NCBI GenBank assembly: GCA_027021615.1
Contig: JALUTY010000056.1
Location: 1 to 38,050, forward strand
Origin: a bacterium
GTDB taxonomy: Bacteria; Desulfobacterota; Deferrisomatia; Deferrisomatales; Deferrisomataceae
Direction: 5' to 3'
Length of the DNA stretch: 38,050 nucleotides
This document shows, piece after piece, positions 6,171 to 33,664 of the stretch. The notes beneath the pieces were generated by a model. It saw only the letters and a list, made by a program, of their open reading frames with translations. It was not told where the DNA came from and ran no database searches. Positions within the stretch are counted from its first letter, which is position 1. Each line of letters starts with the position of its first letter. The translations under genes were made by a program, and so were the position numbers.

Positions 6171-7271
6171 TCAGGCGAACTTGTCGTAGAAGATGCGGTC
6201 CTCGGCCACGCCCTTGTCCGTGAGCACCCGCACGCAGGCGTCGATCATGCCGGGGCTGCCGCACAGGTAGGCCTCCATGCCCTCCATGGCCCCGTGGTGC
6301 CGGGCCACCACGTCGGTGATCAGCCCGGTCTCGCCCTGCCAGTCGTCCCCGGGGTCGGGGTGGGACAGGGCCGGCACGAACGAGAACCCCGGGAGCCGCT
6401 CGCCGTAGGCGTGGAGCCGCTCCAGGTCGTAGAGGTCCCTGCGGGACACCGCGCCGAAGAACAGGGTGACCTTCTTGCGCACGCCGCGGGCCGCCATGTC
6501 GGCCAGGATGCTCTCGAACGGCGCGAGCCCCGACCCCCCGGCGATGAACACGGCCTCGGCCGGGGTCTCGCGCAGGTAGAAGTCGCCGTAGGGGCCGTTG
6601 ATCCGGAGCCGGTCGCCCACGAGCAGCAGCTCGTGGACGAACGTGGTGCAGATGCCCCGGGGCACCTTGCGGATGATCAGCTCGACAGCGCCGGTGTCCT
6701 GGGGCGGCGAGCTGATGGAGTAGGCCCGGTACACGGGCTCGCCCAGGCCGTCGTAGATGGGGGTCTCGATCTGCACGTACTGGCCGGCCCGGAACCGGAA
6801 CTCCACGCCCGGCCCGAACGCCAGCCGCACGCGGCGGATGTCGTAGGTGAGCTCCTCGATCGCCTCGACCCGGACCTCGTACTCCTCCACCTCCATGAGG
6901 TGGGCCGGGATCTCGATGGCCGTGTCGTCGCGCACCTTGACCTGGCAGGCCAGCCGCACCCGGCCCTCGATCTCATCGGGCAACAGGTGCGGGGTCTCGG
7001 TGGGCAGCACCGAGCCGCCGCCCTCCAGAACCCGCACCTTGCACAGCCCGCAGCTGCCCCGGCCGCCGCAGGCCGACGGCACGAAGATCTTGCGCTCGCG
7101 AAGCACCGACAGCAGGGGCTCGCCGCCCGGCACCTCGACCGGGTCGGCGTCGTTGATGGTGAGCCGCACCGGGCCCGAGTGCACGAGCCTGCGCTCGGCC
7201 ACCACCAGGATCAGAGCCAGGAACGCCCCCAGCCCCACCAGAACCCCTACGGCGGTGAGCACGTCGGCCAT
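6171..7271 (-). CDS. nqrF: NqrF-like NADH-oxidising subunit (2Fe-2S, FAD)
   Basis: 366 residues. An N-terminal membrane anchor (about 4-25) is followed by a plant-ferredoxin-type 2Fe-2S domain with four cysteines (SACGGRGSCGLC and RLACQ), then an FAD domain (RAYSISSPP) and an NAD-binding domain (FIAGGSGLAPFESIL, AYLCGSPGMIDA). This is the electron-input subunit of Na+-NQR: NADH to FAD to 2Fe-2S and then to the membrane subunits. It is some 40 residues shorter than typical NqrF. It starts 11 bp after nqrE. RnfB, the ferredoxin-type subunit expected in an RNF operon, is absent, so this is the main evidence that the complex uses NADH as in NQR. Confidence 0.9.
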   Translation of the reverse strand: MADVLTAVGVLVGLGAFLALILVVAERRLVHSGPVRLTINDADPVEVPGGEPLLSVLRERKIFVPSACGGRGSCGLCKVRVLEGGGSVLPTETPHLLPDEIEGRVRLACQVKVRDDTAIEIPAHLMEVEEYEVRVEAIEELTYDIRRVRLAFGPGVEFRFRAGQYVQIETPIYDGLGEPVYRAYSISSPPQDTGAVELIIRKVPRGICTTFVHELLLVGDRLRINGPYGDFYLRETPAEAVFIAGGSGLAPFESILADMAARGVRKKVTLFFGAVSRRDLYDLERLHAYGERLPGFSFVPALSHPDPGDDWQGETGLITDVVARHHGAMEGMEAYLCGSPGMIDACVRVLTDKGVAEDRIFYDKFA

Positions 7272-7282
7272 GGCCTGCCCGC

Positions 7283-7870
7283 TCACATCGGCACCATGCC
7301 CGAGAACCCGATGAAGGCCAGGGCCATGATCCCGGCCAGGATCACCGTGATGCCGGGCCCCTCGAGGGCCGCGGGCACCCGGGAGCGCTTCATCTTCCTG
7401 CGCAGCCCGGCCATGGCGAGGATGGCCAGCGCCCAGCCCACGCCGCTGCCGGCTCCGTAGGCCAGGCTCTGCACGAACGAGTACTGCCGGATCACCATGA
7501 ACAGGCTCACCCCCAGGATGGCGCAGTTCACCGTGATCAGCGGCAGGAAGATGCCCAGGGCGTAGTAGAGCACGGGGCTCGTGCGCTCGATCACCATCTC
7601 CACCAGCTGCACCGTGGCCGCGATCACCACGATGAACGCGATGTAGCGCAGGTACTCGAGCCCCAACGGCTCCAGCAGGTACGCGTACACCAGGTAGTTC
7701 AGGCCCGAGGTGAGGGTCATCACGAACGCCACGGCCGCGCCCAGGCCGGCGGCCGTGCGCACCTCGCGGCTCACGGCAATGAACGGGCACATCCCCAGGA
7801 AGTTCGACAGGAGGATGTTGTTGATGAAGATCGCCGCGATGAAGATCGTGAACGCGCCCTGGCTGGTCAT
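7283..7870 (-). CDS. nqrE: NqrE/RnfA-like membrane subunit
   Basis: 195 residues with about six membrane helices. The opening FIAAIFINNILLSNFLGMCPF is the family signature, with the conserved Cys (about residue 28) that helps hold the intramembrane iron centre together with NqrD. The second half has VNCAILGVSLF with the second cysteine. It should be an antiparallel partner of NqrD in the Na+ or H+ channel. It is separated from nqrD by 137 bp of tandem-repeat DNA, unlike the overlapping upstream genes, and sits 11 bp before nqrF. Confidence 0.92.
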   Translation of the reverse strand: MTSQGAFTIFIAAIFINNILLSNFLGMCPFIAVSREVRTAAGLGAAVAFVMTLTSGLNYLVYAYLLEPLGLEYLRYIAFIVVIAATVQLVEMVIERTSPVLYYALGIFLPLITVNCAILGVSLFMVIRQYSFVQSLAYGAGSGVGWALAILAMAGLRRKMKRSRVPAALEGPGITVILAGIMALAFIGFSGMVPM

Positions 7871-7882
7871 GGCACCCCTGTT

Positions 7883-7996
7883 GGCTGGAAGGCTAGAAGG
7901 CTAGGAAGCTGGGAAGCTGGGAGGCCGGGAGGCCGGGACGTCCCAACGTCCCAACGTCCCAACGTCCCAACGTCCTAACGTCCTAACATCCCAACG
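7883..7996. repeat. 8-bp tandem repeat array between nqrD and nqrE
   Basis: Two arrays lie back to back. 7883-7937 holds GGCTGGAA/GGCTAGAA/GCTGGGAG-type units. 7939-7996 holds four CGTCCCAA units, two CGTCCTAA and one CATCCCAA. The first array is, in reverse complement, a variant of the same CSTCCYAR theme, so the pair could fold as an imperfect hairpin in mRNA. The 8-bp period argues against coding. Related arrays occur near 20200, 30615 and 35285. Confidence 0.85.
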
Positions 7997-8007
7997 TATC
8001 GCCGTCC

Positions 8008-8631
8008 TCACGCCTCCCTCGGTTTCTGGATGGTCCGGAAGAACCAGATGGCCAGGCCCAGCATGAAGAACGCCCCCGGCGGCATGGCCATGATCGTCCA
8101 CAGGGTCACCCCCTCCGGCAGCACCGGGTAGCCGAACAGGGTGCCGAACCCCAGCAGCTCCCGGAAGAACGCGATGGCCAGCAGCACCAGGCTGTACCCC
8201 ACCGCGCATCCCAGGCCGTCCAGGAACGCCAGGCCCGGCGGGTTCTTGGCGGCGAACGCCTCGCACCGGCCCATGATGATGCAGTTGGTGATGATCAGGC
8301 CCACGTACGGCCCCAGGGCCTCGCTGATCTCGGGCAGGTACGCCTTGAGCGCCAGGTCCACCAGGATCACGTAGGAGGCGATGATCAGCACCTGGGCCAT
8401 CATGCGCACCCGCTTGGGCGTGACGTTGCGCAGCAGGCTCACGGTCCAGCAGGACATGGCCGTGGCGAAGATGAGCCCCAGGTCCATGACCACGGTGTTC
8501 ACCAGCAGGTTCGTGACGGCCAGGGTGGAACAGATGCCCAGGATCTGGCGGTACACGGGGTTGTCGTCCCACACGCCCCGGCGCAGGGTGCTGACGGCCC
8601 GGCTCCGCCGCAACCACAGGGCCGGCCTCAT
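8008..8631 (-). CDS. nqrD: NqrD/RnfE-like membrane subunit
   Basis: 207 residues with about six membrane helices. NPVYRQILGICSTLAVTNLL is the family signature (Cys about residue 34), and the second conserved Cys occurs in GLIITNCIIMGRCEAF. With NqrE it forms the membrane core that binds the intramembrane iron cofactor. The ATG overlaps the nqrC stop (ATGA), showing translational coupling. The N-terminus carries about 15 extra basic residues (WLRRSRAVSTLRRG). Confidence 0.92.
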   Translation of the reverse strand: MRPALWLRRSRAVSTLRRGVWDDNPVYRQILGICSTLAVTNLLVNTVVMDLGLIFATAMSCWTVSLLRNVTPKRVRMMAQVLIIASYVILVDLALKAYLPEISEALGPYVGLIITNCIIMGRCEAFAAKNPPGLAFLDGLGCAVGYSLVLLAIAFFRELLGFGTLFGYPVLPEGVTLWTIMAMPPGAFFMLGLAIWFFRTIQKPREA

Positions 8632-9254
8632 CCGTCGCCCCCTCGCCGGAACACCGGCCGTTGGGGAAGGCCCGCCAGGAACTCGTTCAGGAACCGGCCC
8701 AGGCGGTTGCTGGTCTGGGTGGCGCCGGTGATGGCCTCCACCTCCCGGGGGCCTCGGGGCTTCCGGAACACGAACTCCAGCACCCGGCCGTCGCGCGCCT
8801 CCAGGGACTTGCCCCGGAACTGGTCCCGGAACCAGGCCTCGGAGATCCGGCCCCCCAGCCCGGGGGTCTCCTCGTGGCGCAGGAACGAAATGCCCAGGAT
8901 CGTCTCGGCCCGCACGTCCACGGCCACCACGCCGAAGATCGCCCCCCAGAACCCGGGGGCCTCGAACGGGAACGCGTACCCCTTCACCCGCCCCCTCTCC
9001 CGCAGGGCGTAGTAGGGGCCGACCTCGTCGCGGCCCTCGACCACCCGGGCCTTCCACACCCCGGCCAGGGCCACGGGGTCGGTCGGCGCCTCCACCCCGA
9101 ACGCCTGGAGCACCCGGGCCCGCAGACGGGCCTGCTCGCCCGCCTGCTGCCGGGGCAGGCTGAGCACCTCCACCGTGCTCACCGCGGTCCCGAACACGGC
9201 GGACAGGACCACCATGAACACCACCGGGTACCAGGGCCGATCCTGGATCCTCAT
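8628..9254 (-). CDS. nqrC: NqrC/RnfG-like FMN-binding subunit
   Basis: 208 residues: one N-terminal membrane helix (about 10-28) and a periplasmic FMN-binding domain. The domain has GFWGAIFGVVAVD, the EETPGLGGRI segment and the covalent-flavin motif ITGATQTS, whose threonine carries FMN in NqrC and RnfG. The length lies between RnfG and NqrC (about 210-260). It overlaps both neighbours by 4 bp (ATGA), so it is tightly coupled with nqrB and nqrD. Confidence 0.9.
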   Translation of the reverse strand: MRIQDRPWYPVVFMVVLSAVFGTAVSTVEVLSLPRQQAGEQARLRARVLQAFGVEAPTDPVALAGVWKARVVEGRDEVGPYYALRERGRVKGYAFPFEAPGFWGAIFGVVAVDVRAETILGISFLRHEETPGLGGRISEAWFRDQFRGKSLEARDGRVLEFVFRKPRGPREVEAITGATQTSNRLGRFLNEFLAGLPQRPVFRRGGDG

Positions 9255-10228
9255 GCCGGCTGCCCCCCGGCCCGGCGGGCCTTCCACGCCGACAGGGCCT
9301 CCTCGATGATCGGGCCGAAGGTGTTGCCCAGAAGAATCGCGAACATGGCGCCCTCGGGGAAGTTGCCGAACTCCCGGATCAGCACCGCGGCCGTGCCGAT
9401 CACACACCCGTAAAGCACCTTGCCGGCCCGGGTGCGGTTGGCGCTCACCGGGTCGGTGGCCATGAACACGGCCCCATACAGGATGCCGCCGGCCAGGACC
9501 GCCCGCAGGGGATCGGGGCCGGCCAGCCCGGCCGCCCGCAGCGCCCCGGTCAGCACGGCGAAGCTGCCGAGCATGCTCGCAACGATCTCCCACGCCGCCA
9601 CCCGCCTCCACAGGAGGTAAGCCCCACCCAGCAGCACGGCCGCCTTGCAGGTCTCGCCCAGGCTGCCGGGCATGGCCCCCCAGAACAGGGCCGACAGCCC
9701 GATGGGCGCCCCCTTGGCCAGGATCGGCAGCAGGGTGGCCGAGGTTACGGCGTCCGCCGACGGGGCCCAGGCCGTGAGCCCGCCCACGCCCCCCCAGAAC
9801 GGCTCGGTCCAGGTGCCGGTGATGGCCACGGGGAACGACACGTACAGGAACGCCCGACCCACCAGGGCCGGGTTGTACACGTTGCGGCCCATGCCCCCAA
9901 AGAGTTCCTTGCCGAACCCGATCGCCACCACCGCGCCCACGGCGCACATCCAAAACGGCACGGCCGGGGGCAGCGACAGGGCCAGCAGGGTGCCGGTCAC
10001 GAACGCGGCCGAGGTGACCGGCTCGCCCCGGCGCCGGGTGAACGCGTACTCCGTGGCGAACGCGAACGCGTTGGTCACCGCCACCACGGCCAGGGCCCGC
10101 CAGCCGTAAAAGTACACGGCGGCAAGCCCGGCCGGACCCACGGCCGTGAGTACGGCGACCATGTTCGGTTGCCACCGCAGCAAACGGGGGGAGACACGCT
10201 CGGAGGGGGGCTTCTGTGGGGGGGGCAT
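9251..10228 (-). CDS. nqrB: Short NqrB/RnfD-like membrane subunit
   Basis: 325 residues with about nine membrane helices. Diagnostic pieces are GFGKELFGGMGRNVYNPALVGRAFL, here given as GRNVYNPALVGRAFLYV, the covalent FMN motif VTSATLLP and MATDPVSANRT. NqrB of vibrios is about 412 residues, with an N-terminal quinone-binding extension; this protein lacks most of it and is the size of RnfD. It is the first complex subunit of the operon: there is no nqrA or rnfC in front. The ATG at 10226-10228 has only a weak GAGG upstream, so the start is less certain than for the other genes. It follows the winged-helix gene by 71 bp. Confidence 0.85.
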   Translation of the reverse strand: MPPPQKPPSERVSPRLLRWQPNMVAVLTAVGPAGLAAVYFYGWRALAVVAVTNAFAFATEYAFTRRRGEPVTSAAFVTGTLLALSLPPAVPFWMCAVGAVVAIGFGKELFGGMGRNVYNPALVGRAFLYVSFPVAITGTWTEPFWGGVGGLTAWAPSADAVTSATLLPILAKGAPIGLSALFWGAMPGSLGETCKAAVLLGGAYLLWRRVAAWEIVASMLGSFAVLTGALRAAGLAGPDPLRAVLAGGILYGAVFMATDPVSANRTRAGKVLYGCVIGTAAVLIREFGNFPEGAMFAILLGNTFGPIIEEALSAWKARRAGGQPA

Positions 10229-26076: not shown

Positions 26077-26105
26077 TTGTGCCACCGGGCGCTGGCCCGC
26101 ATAAT
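26077..26105 (+). promoter_or_regulatory. Promoter of uvrA-like gene, near-leaderless
   Basis: TTGTGC (26077-26082), a 17-bp spacer and CATAAT (26100-26105). The ATG is at 26116, so transcription would start only about 3-4 nt before it. No ribosome-binding site precedes the ATG, in agreement with a nearly leaderless mRNA. Confidence 0.5.
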
Positions 26106-26115
26106 TCCGGTTCCC

Positions 26116-28869
26116 ATGGAACGACCCCTCATCCCCCCTCTCCGCATCGTCGGCGCCCGCCAGAACAACCTGCGGGACCTGACCATCGAGATCCCCCACG
26201 ACCGGTTCGTGGCGATCACCGGGGTGTCCGGCTCGGGCAAGTCGAGCCTCGCCTTCGACACGGTGTTCGCCGAGGGGCAGTGGCGGTTCCTGGAGTCGCT
26301 ACCGACCTACGCCCGGCTCCTCTCGGAGAAGGGCGTGCGGCCCGCTGTGGACGCCATGGACAACGTGCGGCCGGCCGTGGCCCTAGAACAGCGCAACCCC
26401 GTGCGTACGGCCCGCTCCACCCTGGGCACCGCAACCGAGCTCTACGACCTGTTTCGGCTGCTCTACGCCGCGGCCGGCCGGGTGCGGTGCCCCCGGTGCG
26501 GCGAGCCGGGCCGGACCTGGAGCCCCGAGGCCCTGACCCTGCACCTGCTGGAGACCCGGGCCAGGCACAGGGTCACGGTGGAGGTGCCCCTGGACCGCCT
26601 GACCTGGCTACCGAGGGAAGGGTGGGCCCGCCACCTGTCGGCCCGGGGGTTCGCCCGGGTGCGGGTCGAAGGCCGGATCCGGCCCCTGGAGGAGCCGGAC
26701 CTGCCCCGGTGCCCTCCGGCCGACGGCACCCTGGTCCTCGACCGGCTCGTGCTCGATTCGTCCCGCCGCTCCCGGATCATCTCGGCCCTGGAGCAGGGCT
26801 TCTCCCTGGGCCGGGGCCTGGTGTGCGTGACCGGGGACGACGGCGCTCCCGCGCGGTTCAGCACCCTTCGGCGGTGCGACCGGTGCGACCTGGATCTGCC
26901 GGTGCCGCGGCCCGTGCTGTTCAGCTTCAACCACCCCCTGGGGGCGTGCCCCACCTGCACTGGGTTCGGGGCGGTGCTGGAGTGGGACGAGACCAAGGTG
27001 GTGCCCGACCCCGACAGGACGCTGCGCCAGGGCGCGGTGGAGCCGTGGCAGACCCCGGCCAACCGGTGGTGGCAGGAGCAGCTCGTGCGGCACGGACCGG
27101 CGGCCGGGGTTCCCCTGGACACCCCCTGGGCGGAGCTGGATCCCGAGGCCCGGCGGCTCGTGTGGAAGGGCGGCTCGGGGTTCGAAGGGATCCGGGAGTT
27201 CTTCGAGTACCTGGAGGGCAAGCGCTACAAGATGCACGTGCGGGTGTTCCTGGCCCGGTACCGGAGCCCCCGCACCTGCCCCGACTGCGGCGGGTCCCGC
27301 CTCGGGCCCGCCGCCCTGGCCGTCACCGTGGACGACCGGACCATCGCCGACGCGAGCCGGATGGACCTGGCCGCGCTGGGCCGGTGGGTACGGAGCCTGG
27401 GCCCGCTCGTGGGGCCCCGGGGCCAGGCCGTGCTGTGGCGCATCGAGGACCGGATCGGCACCCTGGTCAGGCTGGGGCTCCACTACCTCACGATGGACCG
27501 CCCCACCCGCACCCTGTCGGGCGGTGAGGCCCAGCGGGCCGCCCTGGCCCTGCAGCTCCAGAACCACCTGACCGGCACCACTTATGTCCTGGACGAGCCC
27601 ACCGTGGGCCTGCACGCCCGCGACGTGGACGTGCTCGGCGAGGTGCTGCGGGAGCTGACCGGCCGGGGCAACACCGTCATCGTTGTGGAGCACGACCTCT
27701 CCCTGATCCGCCGGGCCGACTGGACGATCGAGATGGGCCCGGGAGGGGGCCGCCGGGGCGGCCGGGTCGTGTTCCAGGGCCCGCCGCGGGAGCTCGCCCG
27801 GGCTGACACCCCCACCGGCCGGCACCTGGCCCGGCGCGCCGGCGGCCGGCCCTCTGCCGAGCCGAGACGGCCCCGGGGGTTCCTCACTTTGAAGGAGTGC
27901 CGGCTCCACAACCTCCGGGATCTCGAGGTCTCGGTTCCCCTGGGGGTGCTCGTGTGCGTGACCGGGGTGTCCGGGTCCGGAAAGTCCACCCTCGTGGCCG
28001 ACACCCTGAGGCCGCTGCTGGAGTCGAAGGGAGCCCGGGGTCCGGCCCGCCTCGTGCTGCCCTCCGATCCGCCCGTGGAGGGGGTCCGGCTGGTGGACCA
28101 GTCCCCCATGGGCCGCACCCCCCGGTCGATCCCCTTGACCTACGTGGGGGCGTACAAAGCGGTGCGGGACCTGTTCGCGGGCCTCCCCGCTGCCCGCCGG
28201 CTGGGCCTAGGGCCGGCCCAGTTCTCGTTCAACGTGAAGGGGGGGCGGTGCGAGCGCTGCGGGGGCACGGGGTACGAGAAGCTCGAGATGTACCTGTTCG
28301 AGGACCTGTTCGTGCCGTGCCCGGAGTGCGACGGCCGAAGGTTCCGGCCCCGGGTGCTGGCCGTGCGATACCGGGGCCTAACCATCCATGAGGTGCTGGG
28401 CCTCAGCGTGGACGACGCGGCCGGGGTGTTCGCCGACCACGCCGCGCTGGCCCGGGTGTTCGCCACGCTCCAGCGCCTGGGCCTGGGGTACCTGGTGCTG
28501 GGGCAGCCTGCGCCCACCCTGTCGGGCGGAGAGGCCCAGCGTCTCAAGATCGCCTCGGAGCTCCTGGCCCGGCGTCGGCCCCGCAACCTGGTCTACCTGC
28601 TGGACGAGCCCACCACGGGGCTGCACCCCGACGATCAGGACCGACTGCTTGAGGTGCTCCGGGATCTGGTGGCCGAGGGGAACACGGTGGTGGCCGTGGA
28701 GCACAACCTGGAGTTCATCGCCCGGGCCGACTGGGTCATCGACCTGGGGCCCGGTGGGGGCGACGAGGGGGGCCGGCTGGTGGACGCAGGCCCCCCGGCC
28801 GACGTGGCCCGGCGGGCCCTGGGGCCCACCGGCCGGCACCTGGCCCGGTGGATAGAGGGCAGGCCGTGA
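26116..28869 (+). CDS. uvrA: UvrA-family excinuclease ATPase
   Basis: 917 residues. Two ABC ATPase halves: Walker A GVSGSGKSSLAFDTVFAEGQ and GVSGSGKSTLVADTL, signatures LSGGEAQRAALALQL and LSGGEAQRLKIASELL, Walker B YVLDEPTVGLHARD and YLLDEPTTGLHPDD. Zinc modules: CPRC/CDRC, CPTC...CPDCGG and CERCGGTGYEKLEMYLFEDLFVPC (in part). Canonical UvrA finds bulky DNA damage and loads UvrB. Here signature 1 and several linkers diverge from housekeeping UvrA (about 940 residues), so this may be a paralogue of the UvrA2 type with a role in damage tolerance; no uvrB or uvrC is nearby. The ATG has no ribosome-binding site; see the promoter. Its stop overlaps trmL (GTGA). Confidence 0.88.
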   Translation: MERPLIPPLRIVGARQNNLRDLTIEIPHDRFVAITGVSGSGKSSLAFDTVFAEGQWRFLESLPTYARLLSEKGVRPAVDAMDNVRPAVALEQRNPVRTARSTLGTATELYDLFRLLYAAAGRVRCPRCGEPGRTWSPEALTLHLLETRARHRVTVEVPLDRLTWLPREGWARHLSARGFARVRVEGRIRPLEEPDLPRCPPADGTLVLDRLVLDSSRRSRIISALEQGFSLGRGLVCVTGDDGAPARFSTLRRCDRCDLDLPVPRPVLFSFNHPLGACPTCTGFGAVLEWDETKVVPDPDRTLRQGAVEPWQTPANRWWQEQLVRHGPAAGVPLDTPWAELDPEARRLVWKGGSGFEGIREFFEYLEGKRYKMHVRVFLARYRSPRTCPDCGGSRLGPAALAVTVDDRTIADASRMDLAALGRWVRSLGPLVGPRGQAVLWRIEDRIGTLVRLGLHYLTMDRPTRTLSGGEAQRAALALQLQNHLTGTTYVLDEPTVGLHARDVDVLGEVLRELTGRGNTVIVVEHDLSLIRRADWTIEMGPGGGRRGGRVVFQGPPRELARADTPTGRHLARRAGGRPSAEPRRPRGFLTLKECRLHNLRDLEVSVPLGVLVCVTGVSGSGKSTLVADTLRPLLESKGARGPARLVLPSDPPVEGVRLVDQSPMGRTPRSIPLTYVGAYKAVRDLFAGLPAARRLGLGPAQFSFNVKGGRCERCGGTGYEKLEMYLFEDLFVPCPECDGRRFRPRVLAVRYRGLTIHEVLGLSVDDAAGVFADHAALARVFATLQRLGLGYLVLGQPAPTLSGGEAQRLKIASELLARRRPRNLVYLLDEPTTGLHPDDQDRLLEVLRDLVAEGNTVVAVEHNLEFIARADWVIDLGPGGGDEGGRLVDAGPPADVARRALGPTGRHLARWIEGRP

Positions 28870-29353: not shown

Positions 29354-29617
29354 TCAGTGGGCCCCGCCCCCTTCTGGCACGGACGCAAGCCAGGACGCGG
29401 ACGAGGGGAACGCCGTTCTCGCCCAGAACCCGAGGAACAATGGCACCAGCTCGGGCCGGCGCGCCAGGGTGAGGCGGGCCCGGCAGCCCTGGCACAGCCC
29501 CGTCTGGCGCACCCGCTCCAAAGCCCAGGGGTTGGGAGCCGGCTCGCGCGTCCCGCACGACGGGCAGGCGAAGGACAGGCCCCCCTCCTGCGGTGGGACG
29601 AGACTCGGAAAGGGCAA
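29354..29617 (-). CDS. Small zinc-ribbon protein after tupA
   Basis: 87 residues from a TTG (29615-29617) with GGAG 7 nt upstream. It has two CxxC knuckles (FACPSCGTREPAPNPWALER and GLCQGCRARLTL), then a hydrophobic stretch ELVPLFLGFWA and a small-residue tail. I do not recognise the family. It lies 74 bp after tupA on the same strand and ends 23 bp from the convergent trmL stop. The start codon and the reality of the gene are less certain than its neighbours; the knuckles and the position speak for it. Confidence 0.5.
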   Translation of the reverse strand: MPFPSLVPPQEGGLSFACPSCGTREPAPNPWALERVRQTGLCQGCRARLTLARRPELVPLFLGFWARTAFPSSASWLASVPEGGGAH

Positions 29618-29691
29618 CGTGGAGCTCCAGACATCGGGGAGGAACGCCGGGACCGGGGACCCCGAAGCCCCCGGTCCCGGAGCCGGGGCGG

Positions 29692-30525
29692 CTACGGGTT
29701 CGGGATGGCGTCGGGGAAGAACAGCTGCTCCCCGCCCTTCTTGAACTGCTTGATGATCCGCTGCCCCCGGGGCCCGGTGATGTACCCGATGAGGCACATG
29801 GCGCCCTCATAGTTGGCGTCCGGGTACCGGGCCGGGTTCACCGCGATGATGCCGTAGGGGTTGGCCAGGGCCGGATCGCCCTCGTACACGATCCGAAGGC
29901 CCAGCTTCTCCCGGAACGCGAGGTACGTGCCCCGGTCCGACAGGGTGTAGGCCCCGAGCTCGTCGGCCATGCGCAGCACCGCACCCATGCCCTGGCCGGC
30001 CTCCTTGTACCAGGCTCCGCCAGGCTCGAGGCCGACCGCGGCCCAAAGGGATTTCTCCTTCTTGTGGGTGCCCGAGTCGTCGCCCCGCGACACGAACGAG
30101 GCCTCGGCCCTGGCGATCCGGCGAAGGGCCTCGGCGGCCGAGCCCGAGCCCCGCACGCCGGCCGGGTCGTCGGCCGGTCCCAGCACCACGAAGTCGTTGT
30201 GCATCACGTCCCGCCGGTTCACGCCGTAGCCGTCGGCCACGAACTTGTCCTCGGCCGGCCGGGCGTGCACCAGCACCACGTCCACATCGCCGTTGGCTCC
30301 CAACCGCAGGGCCTTGCCGGTGCCCACCGCGATCACGTCCACCCTGCACCCCCAGGTCTCCTCGAACGGGGGCAGCAGCCGGGCCAGGAGCCCCGAGTTC
30401 TCGGTGCTGGTGGTGGTGGACATCCGGATGCGGCACTCGGCACCGGCCGAGCCGACCCAGCCGGCGACCAGGGCCAGGGCCAGCACCAGCCCGCTCCAGG
30501 AACGGATCCGTCGGCGGTCTCGCAT
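29692..30525 (-). CDS. tupA: Tungstate/molybdate-binding protein, TupA-like
   Basis: 277 residues with a signal peptide (SGLVLALALVAGWVGSAGA, cleavage near residue 30). The mature start RIRMSTTTSTENSGLLARLL is the oxyanion-binding signature of TupA. It is followed by DVDVVLVHARPAEDKFV, NDFVVLGPADDPAGV, FVSRGDDSGTHKKEKSLW and YTLSDRGTYLAF. TupA binds tungstate very tightly and hands it to the TupBC importer. No tupB permease or tupC ATPase is in the window, which is unusual because they normally follow. ATG behind AAGGAG. It is cotranscribed with the porin gene, 187 bp upstream, under the tandem riboswitches. Confidence 0.92.
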   Translation of the reverse strand: MRDRRRIRSWSGLVLALALVAGWVGSAGAECRIRMSTTTSTENSGLLARLLPPFEETWGCRVDVIAVGTGKALRLGANGDVDVVLVHARPAEDKFVADGYGVNRRDVMHNDFVVLGPADDPAGVRGSGSAAEALRRIARAEASFVSRGDDSGTHKKEKSLWAAVGLEPGGAWYKEAGQGMGAVLRMADELGAYTLSDRGTYLAFREKLGLRIVYEGDPALANPYGIIAVNPARYPDANYEGAMCLIGYITGPRGQRIIKQFKKGGEQLFFPDAIPNP

Positions 30526-30614
30526 GGTTTTCTCCTTTCTTGCTGCTGGAAGCTTCATCAGGCCCATGCGGGGCCCTACAACGCGAAGGGGCACCCCCGT
30601 TGGTCCGGGGGGAG

Positions 30615-30712
30615 CTAGAGACTAGAGACTAGAAACTAGAGACTAGAACGTATGGGAATTCTGGAGGTTTCAAGCGTCCTAGCCTCCCAGCCTCCTAGCG
30701 TCCTAGCGGAAG
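30615..30712. repeat. Tandem repeats between porin gene and tupA
   Basis: 30615-30649 holds five 7-bp CTAGAGA-type units; CTAG is otherwise rare. About 30674-30705 holds CGTCCTAG/CCTCCCAG/CCTCCTAG/CGTCCTAG units, the 8-bp family also found near 7939, 20200 and 35285. The arrays lie in the transcribed spacer of the operon. Confidence 0.8.
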
Positions 30713-31915
30713 TCAGAACGCCACCTGGTACTGGACCCGGAACCGATCCTCGGTCACGGCCGAGCCCGGCCCGTCCTGGTCGCGGATCCGGAACCAGTCG
30801 GCCTGGATCTTGTTGCGGTGGCCGTTGAAGAACACGTTTAAGGCCACCCCGTAGGACTGGGTCAGATCGTCGGAGGCGTCCGTGTTCGGGTCGAAGAACT
30901 CGTACCGGCCGGCTACCTCCACCACGTCCCTCCACACCAGGGCGCCCCCCTGCACGTACAGGCCCGTGGCGGTCTCGTCGTCCACGCCGTCGGCCTTGGG
31001 GTCGATCCGGCGGCGATGGCCCTCGGCCCGGAGCGAGAACCCCCGGTACGCCATCCCCGCGAATCCCCCCACGCTCACCACGTCGCTCGTGCCCAGGGCC
31101 GTGAGCCTTCCGTTCAGGTTCTTGCGGGTGTGGCCCGCCACGTCGTCGTCGTAGGCCACCGAGGCCGCCAGGAACACCTGGGGGCGCTCGGGCCGGTTCA
31201 GGCTCGGCTCCCCGGCCAGGGGGCTTCCGCCCACCGGGGCCCACACGACCCGGCCCACGTACAGGTGACCGTCGCCCGAGTTGTTGCGGTTGCGTCCCTC
31301 GCCGTTGAACACGCCCGCGTCGTAGGACAGCCCACCGGCCAGCTTGCCGTGGACCGTGACGCCCGTGTCCCGGTCGAACCGGAACGTGGCGTCCACCCCG
31401 CTTCGCTCCACGAACTGGAGCTTCGAGGCCGACACGTTCCACTGCACGCCGTAGGGCACCTTGTAGGCCCCGGCCTTCACGGCGAACCAGGGGGCGAACG
31501 CGTAGTCCCCGAAGAAATCGAACAGGTCCGTGCCCTTCTCGTTGCCCGAGTACACGTTCACGTAGACCTTGTACCTGAGGTTCCTGCGAAACGCGTGCCC
31601 CTTGAGCCCCACGCGCGTGCGCTGCACCGAGAAGTTGCTCTGGTTCTCGGCGTCCTCCAGCTCCCGGAACGTGTAGCGCACCTGGCCGTAGCCGTAGATC
31701 CGGCCGGAGAACCGGCCGTCCCGGCTCCGGTAGGACAGGTGGTTCGGGGCCGCGGGCACGGCCGGGGCCTGCTGGGCCTCCAGCTCCTTGCGCTCGGCCG
31801 CCGTGATGATGCCCCTCTGCTCCAGGCGCTCGACCAGGTCGACCCGGGCCCACCCGGGCCGGGCCCCCACCCCCAGGGTCGCCAGTACCGCCAGAACTCC
31901 CATGATCTGCCGCAT
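30713..31915 (-). CDS. OprP/OprO-type anion-selective porin
   Basis: 400 residues with a signal peptide (QIMGVLAVLATLGVGARPGW). A short coiled segment (VERLEQRGIITAAERKELEA) and a 16-strand-type beta barrel of the phosphate-selective porin family follow. Typical pieces are SGRIYGYGQVRYTF, RRNLRYKVYVNVYS, FAVKAGAYKVPYG and the closing strand FRVQYQVAF with a C-terminal Phe, as needed for outer-membrane insertion. OprP-type porins select oxyanions by basic residues in the pore. The position behind Moco/Tuco-type riboswitches and before tupA suggests tungstate or molybdate as the substrate. ATG behind AAGGAGG at 7 nt. Confidence 0.85.
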   Translation of the reverse strand: MRQIMGVLAVLATLGVGARPGWARVDLVERLEQRGIITAAERKELEAQQAPAVPAAPNHLSYRSRDGRFSGRIYGYGQVRYTFRELEDAENQSNFSVQRTRVGLKGHAFRRNLRYKVYVNVYSGNEKGTDLFDFFGDYAFAPWFAVKAGAYKVPYGVQWNVSASKLQFVERSGVDATFRFDRDTGVTVHGKLAGGLSYDAGVFNGEGRNRNNSGDGHLYVGRVVWAPVGGSPLAGEPSLNRPERPQVFLAASVAYDDDVAGHTRKNLNGRLTALGTSDVVSVGGFAGMAYRGFSLRAEGHRRRIDPKADGVDDETATGLYVQGGALVWRDVVEVAGRYEFFDPNTDASDDLTQSYGVALNVFFNGHRNKIQADWFRIRDQDGPGSAVTEDRFRVQYQVAF

Positions 31916-31953
31916 TCGTTCCTCCTTTCCGTGATGGGTGAGCGGCGAATCCT

Positions 31954-31994
31954 CCAAACGAGAAGCGCCCCCTTTCCGGCTGGAAAGGGGGCGC
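31954..31994 (-). terminator. Hairpin between second aptamer and porin RBS
   Basis: A perfect 13-bp stem (31982-31994 with 31965-31977) with a 4-base loop, followed on the minus strand by a T-poor tail (TTCTCGTTTGG). It may be a weak terminator. It also holds CTTTCC, which can pair with GGAAAG of the aptamer or of the porin ribosome-binding site. Probable expression platform of the second riboswitch. Confidence 0.55.
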
Positions 31995-32019
31995 GGGCAT
32001 GCCGGGCGGACCCCGCACG

Positions 32020-32131
32020 GAACCCGTCCGTCGCACCGCCTCCTTTCCAAGCACGGGAGGCCCGGCGGTTTCCCGCCGAACCCGTCGGCCGCGCGCCCTA
32101 GGACGGACCCCGTAGGCGCCACGGCTCGGAG
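32020..32131 (-). ncRNA. Moco/Tuco-type riboswitch aptamer, second of two
   Basis: On the minus strand it opens with CTCCGAGC, has CCTAGGG, then a GGCGG-GAAA-CCGCC hairpin, directly followed by GGCCTCCCG and GGAAAGGAGG. GTCCGTC and GACGGAC arms close the core. These blocks are those of the Moco RNA motif as I remember it (GNRA hairpin, GCCTCCC, AAAGGAG), which senses molybdenum or tungsten cofactor. It shares all blocks, in the same order, with the upstream copy. It lies about 105 bp before the porin start codon. Confidence 0.75.
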
Positions 32132-32140
32132 GCAACACAC

Positions 32141-32173
32141 AAAAAAACCCTCCCCGCGGTCGGACGGGGAGGG
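32141..32173 (-). terminator. Intrinsic terminator after first aptamer
   Basis: A 9-bp stem (CGGGGAGGG at 32165-32173 with 32148-32156), an 8-base loop and seven T residues on the minus strand. It starts about 10 nt after the first aptamer, so it is the expression platform: ligand-dependent termination before the second aptamer. Confidence 0.88.
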
Positions 32174-32183
32174 CGCACAGAAC

Positions 32184-32292
32184 ACCGGTCACCCGTCTCC
32201 TTTCCGAACGCGGGAGGCCGGGGCGTTTCCACCCCGACCCATCGGCGAACCGCCCCTAGGCCGCTGGGGCCGGTAGGTCGGTCCGCTCGGAG
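32184..32292 (-). ncRNA. Moco/Tuco-type riboswitch aptamer, first of two
   Basis: It opens with CTCCGAGC at 32292, then CCTAGGGG, GGTTCGCCGATGGGTCGG, a GGGGTG-GAAA-CGCCCC hairpin, GGCCTCCCG and GGAAAGGAG. The order, spacing (about 109 nt) and GNRA loop match the second copy and the Moco RNA motif. Variants of this motif without one stem are associated with tungsten cofactor genes; I cannot decide by eye which ligand this one binds. The downstream porin and tupA genes favour tungsten. Confidence 0.75.
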
Positions 32293-32296
32293 ACAC

Positions 32297-32355
32297 AAAA
32301 AAGCATATCCGGCCGGCGGCCCCGGGGTCAAGGGGAAACCCCGGGGCCGCCGGCC
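32297..32355 (-). terminator. Intrinsic terminator of paaK
   Basis: A perfect 17-bp stem (32339-32355 with 32311-32327), an 11-base loop and, after GGATATGC, a run of six T on the minus strand. It starts 7 bp after the paaK stop. The distance from stem to T tract is longer than ideal, so some readthrough into the riboswitch operon is possible. Confidence 0.7.
32302..32331 (-). promoter_or_regulatory. Promoter of riboswitch-porin-tupA operon
   Basis: TTGACC (32326-32331) and TATGCT (32302-32307), 18 bp apart, on the minus strand. The predicted start (about 32295) is just before the first aptamer. The -35 and spacer lie within the loop and distal arm of the paaK terminator. Confidence 0.55.
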
Positions 32356-32362
32356 GAGCCGC

Positions 32363-33664
32363 CTACTTCTTGCGCTCGTCGATCACCCGCTTGGCCTTGC
32401 CCTCGCTGCGGGCGATGCTGCCCTGGGGCACGATCTCCACGGGCGCGTGGATGCCGATCACGGCGTGGATGCGGGCGCTGATCCGACGGGCCAGGTCCTC
32501 CAGGGCCTCCTTGCCCTGAGCGTACACCGCGGGCTTGGCCTCGGCCTCCACCTTCATGCCGTCCAGGTGGCCCTTCTTGAACACCCGGATCTGGTAGAGG
32601 GGCTCCATCTCCTCGAACTCCATGATGACCGACTCCACCTGGCTCGGGAACACGTTCACGCCCGAGATGATCAGCATGTCGTCGGACCGGCCGAGAATCT
32701 TGTCCATCACCACGAGGCTGCGGCCGCACTCGCACTCGACCCGCCGCAGGCTCGTGATGTCGCGGGTCCGGTACCGCAGAAGCGGCATGGCCCGGCGCTG
32801 TAGGGCCGTGAACACGAGCTCACCCTTCTCGCCCAGGGGCACGGGCTCCAAAGTGGCCGGATCCACGATCTCCGGGTACACGTGATCCTCGTTCAGGTGC
32901 AGCCGGTACGCCTCGCACGAGAACCCCACGCCGGGGCCCATCATCTCGGTCAGCCCGTAGGCCTCGTGGGCGGTGATACCCATGCGCTCCTCGATCTCCC
33001 TGCGCATCTCCACGGTCCACGGCTCGGCCCCGAACGAGCCCACCCGCAGGGGCAGATCGCGCAGGTCCACCCCCATCTGATCGGCCTTCTCGGCGATCGT
33101 CAGGGCATAGGTGGGGGTGCAGAACAGCACCGTGCTCCCGAAGTCCTGCATGAGCATGATCTGGCGCTCGGTCATGCCCGAGCCGGTGGGCACCAGGCAC
33201 GAGCCGATGGCCTCGACCCCCAGGTAGAAGCCCAGCCCGCCGGTGAAGAGCCCCATGCCGTACGCGTTCTGGCAGATGTCGTCGGGCCGGACCCCCTGGG
33301 CCCACAGGGTCCGGGCCATGCACTCCTGCCACTGGGCCCTGTCCTCGGCCGTGTAGGGACCGGTGATGGGCTTGCCGGTGGTTCCGGAGGAGGCGTGCAC
33401 CCGCACCAGGTCCTTCATCGGCACGGCGCACAGCCCGAAAGGGTAGTTGTCACGCAGGTCGTTCTTGACGGTGAACGGGAGGTGACAGATGTCGTCCAGG
33501 GTGCGGATGTCCTCGGGCTTCACCCCCTTCTCGTCGAGCTTCTGTTTGTAGAAGGGGACCCGTTCGTACAGCCAGGCCACGGTCTCCCGGAGCTTCTGCG
33601 CCTGGAACTCCTGGAGCTGCTCCACCGGCATGGCCTCGAACTTCTCGTTCCAAAATTTCTTCAT
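32363..33664 (-). CDS. paaK: Phenylacetate--CoA ligase
   Basis: 433 residues, the usual length. AMP-forming ligase: P-loop VHASSGTTGKPITGPYT, adenine site GLTEMMGPGVGFSCE, RTRDIT and the hinge GRSDDMLIISGVNVFPSQVE; the catalytic lysine is in IARSEGKAKRVID. It activates phenylacetate (or a related aromatic or short acid) with ATP and CoA. No paaA-E ring-oxidation genes are near, in line with use in anaerobic aromatic breakdown or aromatic amino-acid fermentation. ATG at 33662-33664 behind GGAGGAG. A promoter and an inverted repeat precede it; a terminator follows it. Confidence 0.93.
   Translation of the reverse strand: MKKFWNEKFEAMPVEQLQEFQAQKLRETVAWLYERVPFYKQKLDEKGVKPEDIRTLDDICHLPFTVKNDLRDNYPFGLCAVPMKDLVRVHASSGTTGKPITGPYTAEDRAQWQECMARTLWAQGVRPDDICQNAYGMGLFTGGLGFYLGVEAIGSCLVPTGSGMTERQIMLMQDFGSTVLFCTPTYALTIAEKADQMGVDLRDLPLRVGSFGAEPWTVEMRREIEERMGITAHEAYGLTEMMGPGVGFSCEAYRLHLNEDHVYPEIVDPATLEPVPLGEKGELVFTALQRRAMPLLRYRTRDITSLRRVECECGRSLVVMDKILGRSDDMLIISGVNVFPSQVESVIMEFEEMEPLYQIRVFKKGHLDGMKVEAEAKPAVYAQGKEALEDLARRISARIHAVIGIHAPVEIVPQGSIARSEGKAKRVIDERKK

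Follow-up and report, generated by a model that had tools for sequence, protein, structure and literature searches.

In a bacterium of the Deferrisomatales (Desulfobacterota), the leader of a porin-tupA operon on the minus strand of the window (the whole analysed stretch of 38,050 nucleotides) most probably holds two complete Tuco/Wco OFF riboswitches, placed in series behind one promoter and both acting as transcriptional gates. Tungstate uptake would then probably be shut off when the tungsten cofactor suffices; we infer both the ligand and the gating. A cmscan search of the whole window gave exactly two Rfam matches above the cut-off, both on the minus strand and both to RF01055, the molybdenum/tungsten riboswitch aptamer. 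RNA1 (32304-32181) scored 69.8 bits (E = 5e-15) and RNA2 (32143-32026) scored 71.3 bits (E = 2e-15). The cut-off of RF01055 is 36 bits, and both RNAs matched the model at full length (positions 1 to 135). This covariance-model search is the check that an earlier note on this DNA had named, and it bears out the note's proposal of two Moco/Tuco-family RNAs in one leader. The tandem pair extends over 32304-32026, slightly wider than the 32020-32292 of the note. Sub-cut-off RNA-family matches, such as those of miRNA models on the paaK hairpin, were attributed to chance.

The motifs that the note had listed in order were all present: each RNA carries CTCCGAGC, CCTAGGG, a GAAA-capped stem, GGCCTCCCG and GGAAAGGAG. 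The P1 strands are located at 32294-32289 and 32200-32195 in RNA1 and at 32133-32128 and 32043-32038 in RNA2 (minus strand). In minimum-energy folds at nascent lengths, P1, P2, the GAAA-capped P4 and a small P5 were recovered in both aptamers. In the RF01055 alignment the P3 positions are gaps in both RNAs, and the spacer between P2 and P4 is just 3 nt (GAU/GAC).

The conservation of these stems was analyzed with 34 P3-less aptamers from the Desulfobacterota. Paired cells amounted to 88.4%, compared with 74.3% in column shuffles. The covariation score was 0.413, compared with 0.176 ± 0.012 in the shuffles, and none of the 500 shuffles reached it. Slid-strand controls gave covariation of 0.08 to 0.11; the column shuffles ignore kinship, whereas the slid control corrects for kinship but favours the family-derived structure. 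Changes on both sides were found in 19 of the 29 pairs, with covariation in P1, P2 and P4. Covariation among homologues, on which the earlier note had let its reading depend together with the RF01055 matches, is therefore present. A second covariance model built from the 34 relatives, with both RNAs in its training set, scored RNA1 and RNA2 at about 100 and 99 bits.

The Moco and Tuco subtypes are defined by the presence or absence of P3 (Regulski 2008, PMC2408646), and the P3-bearing RNAs are those tied to Moco genes (PMC2408646). By this published criterion both RNAs of the window are assigned to the tungsten-cofactor (Tuco/Wco) subtype, with tungsten cofactor as the presumed ligand. The absence of P3 as a mark of tungsten specificity is based on correlation (Regulski 2008, PMC2408646), and direct ligand binding was deemed impractical to test by the discoverers (PMC2408646). 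An association with tungsten was found in the genome: tupA lies downstream of the pair, tupB lies behind a third RNA, and the tungsten aldehyde oxidoreductase domain AFOR_N has 10 matches. The third RF01055 RNA (G000:C78:213718-213821) is single and lacks P3; behind it come a terminator and then genes for a TupB-like permease and an ABC ATPase.

The leader is flanked on the minus strand by a phenylacetate-CoA-ligase-like gene (end near 32363) and the porin gene (start 31915). The sequence scan detected a single promoter in 29500-32450, where 0.1 was expected. This is the sigma-70-type TTGACC-18-TATGCT at 32331-32302 (minus strand). Its -10 element ends 10 nt before the TCCGA of RNA1, which would put the start of the transcript practically at P1. 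The promoter occurs at an equal distance in G002 (a member of the same genus) and in G003, which belongs to another genus of the family; in the tupB leaders of G002 and of the window's own genome (G000) the distance agrees to within one base. In G001, a further member of the genus, it was read from the sequence at an equal position. Similar promoter elements occur at other loci of the order. The stretch of about 37 nt between RNA1 and RNA2 contains only a terminator, with no ORF and no promoter, and the best promoter score upstream of RNA2 was only 4 to 5 of 12. This indicates that RNA2 is probably reached only by polymerases that have passed RNA1. The ligase-like ORF is followed by a 20-bp terminator-like hairpin (32356-32310, minus strand), and the promoter of the riboswitch operon overlaps it, lying inside its 3' half (window 32302-32356). 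In G003 a similar promoter is preceded by a different upstream sequence.

Each RNA is followed by a hairpin of its own. The terminator that the note had placed after the first RNA is real: an 11-pair stem (32174-32147) with a T run, together spanning 32174-32141 (minus strand). The hairpin behind RNA2 (31994-31956, minus strand) has the perfect 13-bp stem that had been described (31994-31965), a loop AGCC and the tail TTCTCGTTT, and is a probable weak intrinsic terminator. It had also been said to lie next to the ribosome-binding site, but it is 34 nt away from the Shine-Dalgarno sequence GGAAAGGAGG (31930-31921, minus strand) of the porin gene, whose ATG is at 31915. The tail of hairpin 2 scored -3.6, which is weak compared with -5.8 for terminator 1. 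In G003 the second stem is followed by TTTCTTTTTT, a clear U-tract, and in L059, a distant porin-tupA tandem, both stems have strong U-tracts, with a T6 tail after the second hairpin.

An antiterminator was predicted for RNA2. The conserved 3' strand of RNA2 (P5/P1), GGAAAGGAGGCG (32048-32037, minus strand), can pair with 31993-31982 in the 5' arm of hairpin 2, CGCCCCCTTTCC, with one mismatch. The predicted antiterminator had an energy of -21.7 kcal/mol, compared with -14.8 kcal/mol for shuffled sequences (p = 0.013). In thermodynamic predictions for nascent RNA2, the antiterminated form was 4.3 kcal/mol more stable than P1 as long as the 3' arm of the hairpin has not emerged. For RNA1 the antiterminator was no better than shuffled sequences (p = 0.29), and in the full-length RNA an alternative fold was predicted to beat P1 plus terminator by 4.6 kcal/mol. 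Antiterminator pairing was also considered as a general rule, with mixed results. It stood out at RNA2 and at many Geobacter-like loci, but GC-rich terminators of the RNA1 type were not above shuffles; the overall Wilcoxon p of 8e-6 was computed on related sequences.

Without ligand, the 3' strand of the aptamer (GGAAAGGAG and P1) would help to form an antiterminator, and the polymerase would read through. With ligand, P1 would lock, the hairpin would form and transcription would stop. Since the polymerase must clear both gates, the response should be steeper and the leak lower than with one gate, a behaviour termed pseudo-cooperative. The outcome would be a negative feedback that limits the entry of tungstate. 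The porin may pass the oxyanion across the outer membrane, TupA would capture it, and tungstate would be carried inwards by TupB and TupC, whose genes lie at another locus preceded by one RNA of this type.

The earlier note had also proposed two gates in series, the second of them translational or terminating. The serial part agrees with the separate platform of each RNA and is consistent with steeper OFF control, whereas distance, U-tracts and folding speak against a translational second gate. In such a bi-mechanism arrangement RNA1 would terminate transcription and RNA2 would gate porin translation through the accessibility of the Shine-Dalgarno sequence, and there is something to be said for it. 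The U-tract of hairpin 2 is poor in the genus of the window, the hairpin-2 element CCCCCUUUCC is also complementary to GGAAAGG in the porin Shine-Dalgarno sequence, and CCUCC of P1 can pair with GGAGG. Bi-mechanism tandems are known for SAM riboswitches (PMC9481103), and the second RNA of G268 looks translational. However, 34 nt lie between hairpin 2 and the Shine-Dalgarno sequence, and the homologues of the hairpin in G003 and L059 carry clear U-tracts, which is why two serial terminators fit better than transcription plus translation. Forced sequestration of the Shine-Dalgarno sequence was predicted to cost about 17 kcal/mol above the minimum fold. Its predicted openness was 0.60 in the bound state and 0.31 in the unbound state, the wrong direction for an OFF gate; by folding prediction, then, the site is not hidden when ligand is bound. 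A translational second gate is thus unlikely in the window. In G268 the second RNA has no clear terminator and has a hairpin that pairs with the Shine-Dalgarno sequence instead, so platforms differ between lineages, and the G268 pair is a possible bi-mechanism tandem. In this second RNA (L070/L087), CTTTCCCGG...CCGGAAAGGAGG can mask a sequence resembling a Shine-Dalgarno.

The idea that the pair combines molybdenum and tungsten signals, one RNA sensing each cofactor, could draw on the aptamers being just 66% identical with separate histories, and on modA-like genes in the genome. Two modA matches stand beside the 10 AFOR_N matches, indicating that both metals may be used. Nevertheless, this two-input gate was rejected because P3, the sole feature published as distinguishing the Moco type (PMC2408646), is missing from both RNAs, which belong to one subtype; nor was a P3-type RNA found among the three RF01055 matches of the genome. 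We regard it as very improbable. It is equally improbable that one of the two, RNA2 or else RNA1, is a degenerate or superfluous copy that contributes little to regulation. Single RNAs on the porin or tupA do suffice for relatives in the order, and the tail of hairpin 2 is weak, but both RNAs score about 70 bits with conserved positions intact, RNA2 is 84% identical between genera, and the tandem recurs in other lineages. Two serial transcriptional gates remain the preferred reading.

The tandem occurs with equal spacing in G001 and G002. In G003 it is located directly before tupA, and no porin match was found in that genome. Judging by these homologues, the pair is common to at least two genera. 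RNA1 shares 66% identity with RNA2, 85% with the tupB-leader RNA and 82% with the porin-leader RNA of G007, whereas RNA2 shares 84% with RNA2 of G003. A recent local duplication as the origin of the tandem was rejected on these cross-locus identities, which indicate that the pair is older than the split of the two genera. In contrast, the two copies in G268 are 81% identical and group together.

RF01055 RNAs above the cut-off were found in 62 of the 297 Desulfobacterota genomes sampled. These genomes, together with two weaker matches in G024, comprised 119 RNAs in 110 loci, nine of them tandem. Three tandems belong to the genus of the window, and the others are in G003 (before tupA), G024 (aldehyde oxidoreductase), G080 (porin), G268 (porin-tupA) and G213, which has two; by ORF reading the latter precede molybdenum-hydroxylase-like and moeA-like genes. 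L059 is an additional tandem beyond the nine. The G024 tandem (L035, G024:C28:10087-10400) has two similar platforms and precedes a gene resembling aldehyde ferredoxin oxidoreductase, a tungsten enzyme. In L079 (G112:C121:15584-15958) two RF01055 RNAs form a divergent pair, one on each strand, with about 130 nt between them. Enrichment of tandems at porin loci was weak (Fisher p = 0.002 raw and 0.036 with the genus of the window counted once) and is not claimed.

The tandem arrangement itself is already known, and the window pair is a conserved further example. The earlier note had known of no described tandem of this kind; that claim fails because Regulski 2008 (PMC2408646) and a 2022 survey (PMC9481103) both describe tandem Moco/Wco RNAs. 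The 2008 paper described Moco RNAs in tandem in Syntrophomonas wolfei and Geobacter metallireducens and proposed "digital" control; in S. wolfei three P3-less RNAs stand in a row, and the first and second are each followed by a terminator (PMC2408646). The window pair resembles these cases in its serial P3-less RNAs, in the transport or MPT genes downstream and, for S. wolfei, in the clear terminator after RNA1 and the probable one after RNA2. It differs from the S. wolfei array in that there are two RNAs instead of three, each has a hairpin, and the operon downstream is porin-tupA. The 2022 survey classed tandem Moco riboswitches (13 doublets and 2 triplets) and tandem Wco riboswitches as pseudo-cooperative (PMC9481103). 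The window pair agrees with that class in consisting of independent one-ligand riboswitches, each with its own platform, but the Wco tandems of the survey precede hydrogenase and arsenic-response genes, whereas here porin and tup genes follow. Features shared with the RF01055 family as described (PMC2408646) are the conserved motifs, the P1-P2-P4-P5 layout, the leader position before metal-cofactor genes, the GAAA tetraloop and the receptor-like CCUA/YANGG in P2. The RNAs here stand apart from the family as a whole in being P3-less, and the genes that they would control are tupA and a porin gene; the word "porin" is absent from the text of that paper. The pair adds one well-mapped, conserved case to the short list of tandem Wco riboswitches. 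It also offers a test bed in which a single promoter and two aptamers of separate descent, each with a platform, serve one tungstate-uptake operon, and the genome's own tupB leader, with its one RNA, is an internal control.

The first gene of the operon (31915-30713, minus strand) encodes an outer-membrane porin of 400 aa. It matched Porin_O_P (PF07396) with 59 bits (cut-off, 20.9), and its AlphaFold model, with a mean pLDDT of 77, is a beta-barrel structurally most similar to OprP and OprO. The same two proteins were the PDB matches of a profile made from relatives of the porin. The window porin thus resembles Pseudomonas OprP/OprO in family, fold and best PDB matches by both sequence and fold, but it is only about 17% identical to them and adjoins tungstate genes under an RF01055 RNA, and tungstate is a candidate substrate only. 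The second gene (30594-29692, minus strand) encodes a TupA-type tungstate-binding periplasmic protein of 300 aa. NCBIfam NF041772 was its sole match, with 224.6 bits, under the 400-bit equivalog cut-off, and among solved structures it matched 3lr1 best (E = 1.6e-90), which is a tungstate-binding protein.

A PF07396 gene was located directly downstream of an RF01055 locus (start at most 800 nt downstream, same strand) in 15 of the 62 RNA-bearing genomes, belonging to 13 genera, whereas about 0.01 was expected by chance. Examples are G005:C380, G007:C48, G035:C20, G080:C92, G248:C50 and G268:C8. Four loci found independently via porin homology (L058 to L061) have the RNA-porin arrangement too. 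The gene orders include RNA-porin-tupA(-tupB) and RNA-porin-cytochrome-like gene-small ORF-tupA. In G248 the porin is followed by a ModA-like protein (PF13531; the ModA assignment is a reading), and a tupA or ModA-like gene adjoins the porin in several of the 15 genomes. The link is not universal, as an RF01055 RNA was absent from the porin homologues of Geomonas and two others.

This recurrent link suggests an outer-membrane tungstate or molybdate channel under cofactor control, and with Porin_O_P genes placed after such RNAs, acquisition of these oxyanions would seem to include an outer-membrane step. More specifically, we lean, with some reservation, towards the view that an OprP/OprO-type porin may serve many Desulfobacterota genera as a channel dedicated to passing tungstate (or molybdate) through the outer membrane, with its synthesis gated by the cytoplasmic tungsten cofactor and sometimes preceded by doubled riboswitches for tighter shut-off. 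If true, tungsten/molybdenum uptake would include an outer-membrane step controlled by riboswitches. The recurrent porin link appears to be unreported: no report of it was found in a full-text search of open-licence papers or in the papers checked.

An RNA-porin module with a CxxCH cytochrome-like gene was seen at L083, L086, L081, L082 and L085 (G213, G080, G140, G190 and G275). It continues with a small ORF and tupA in G080, G190 and G213. Elsewhere in the window, ORFs on the minus strand (6171-10175) resemble subunits of the Na+-translocating NADH:quinone oxidoreductase (Nqr) and are ordinary. On the plus strand, a gene for a UvrA-like protein of 929 aa (26080-28869) is convergent to the porin-tupA operon; a gene for a SpoU-family RNA methylase comes after it.
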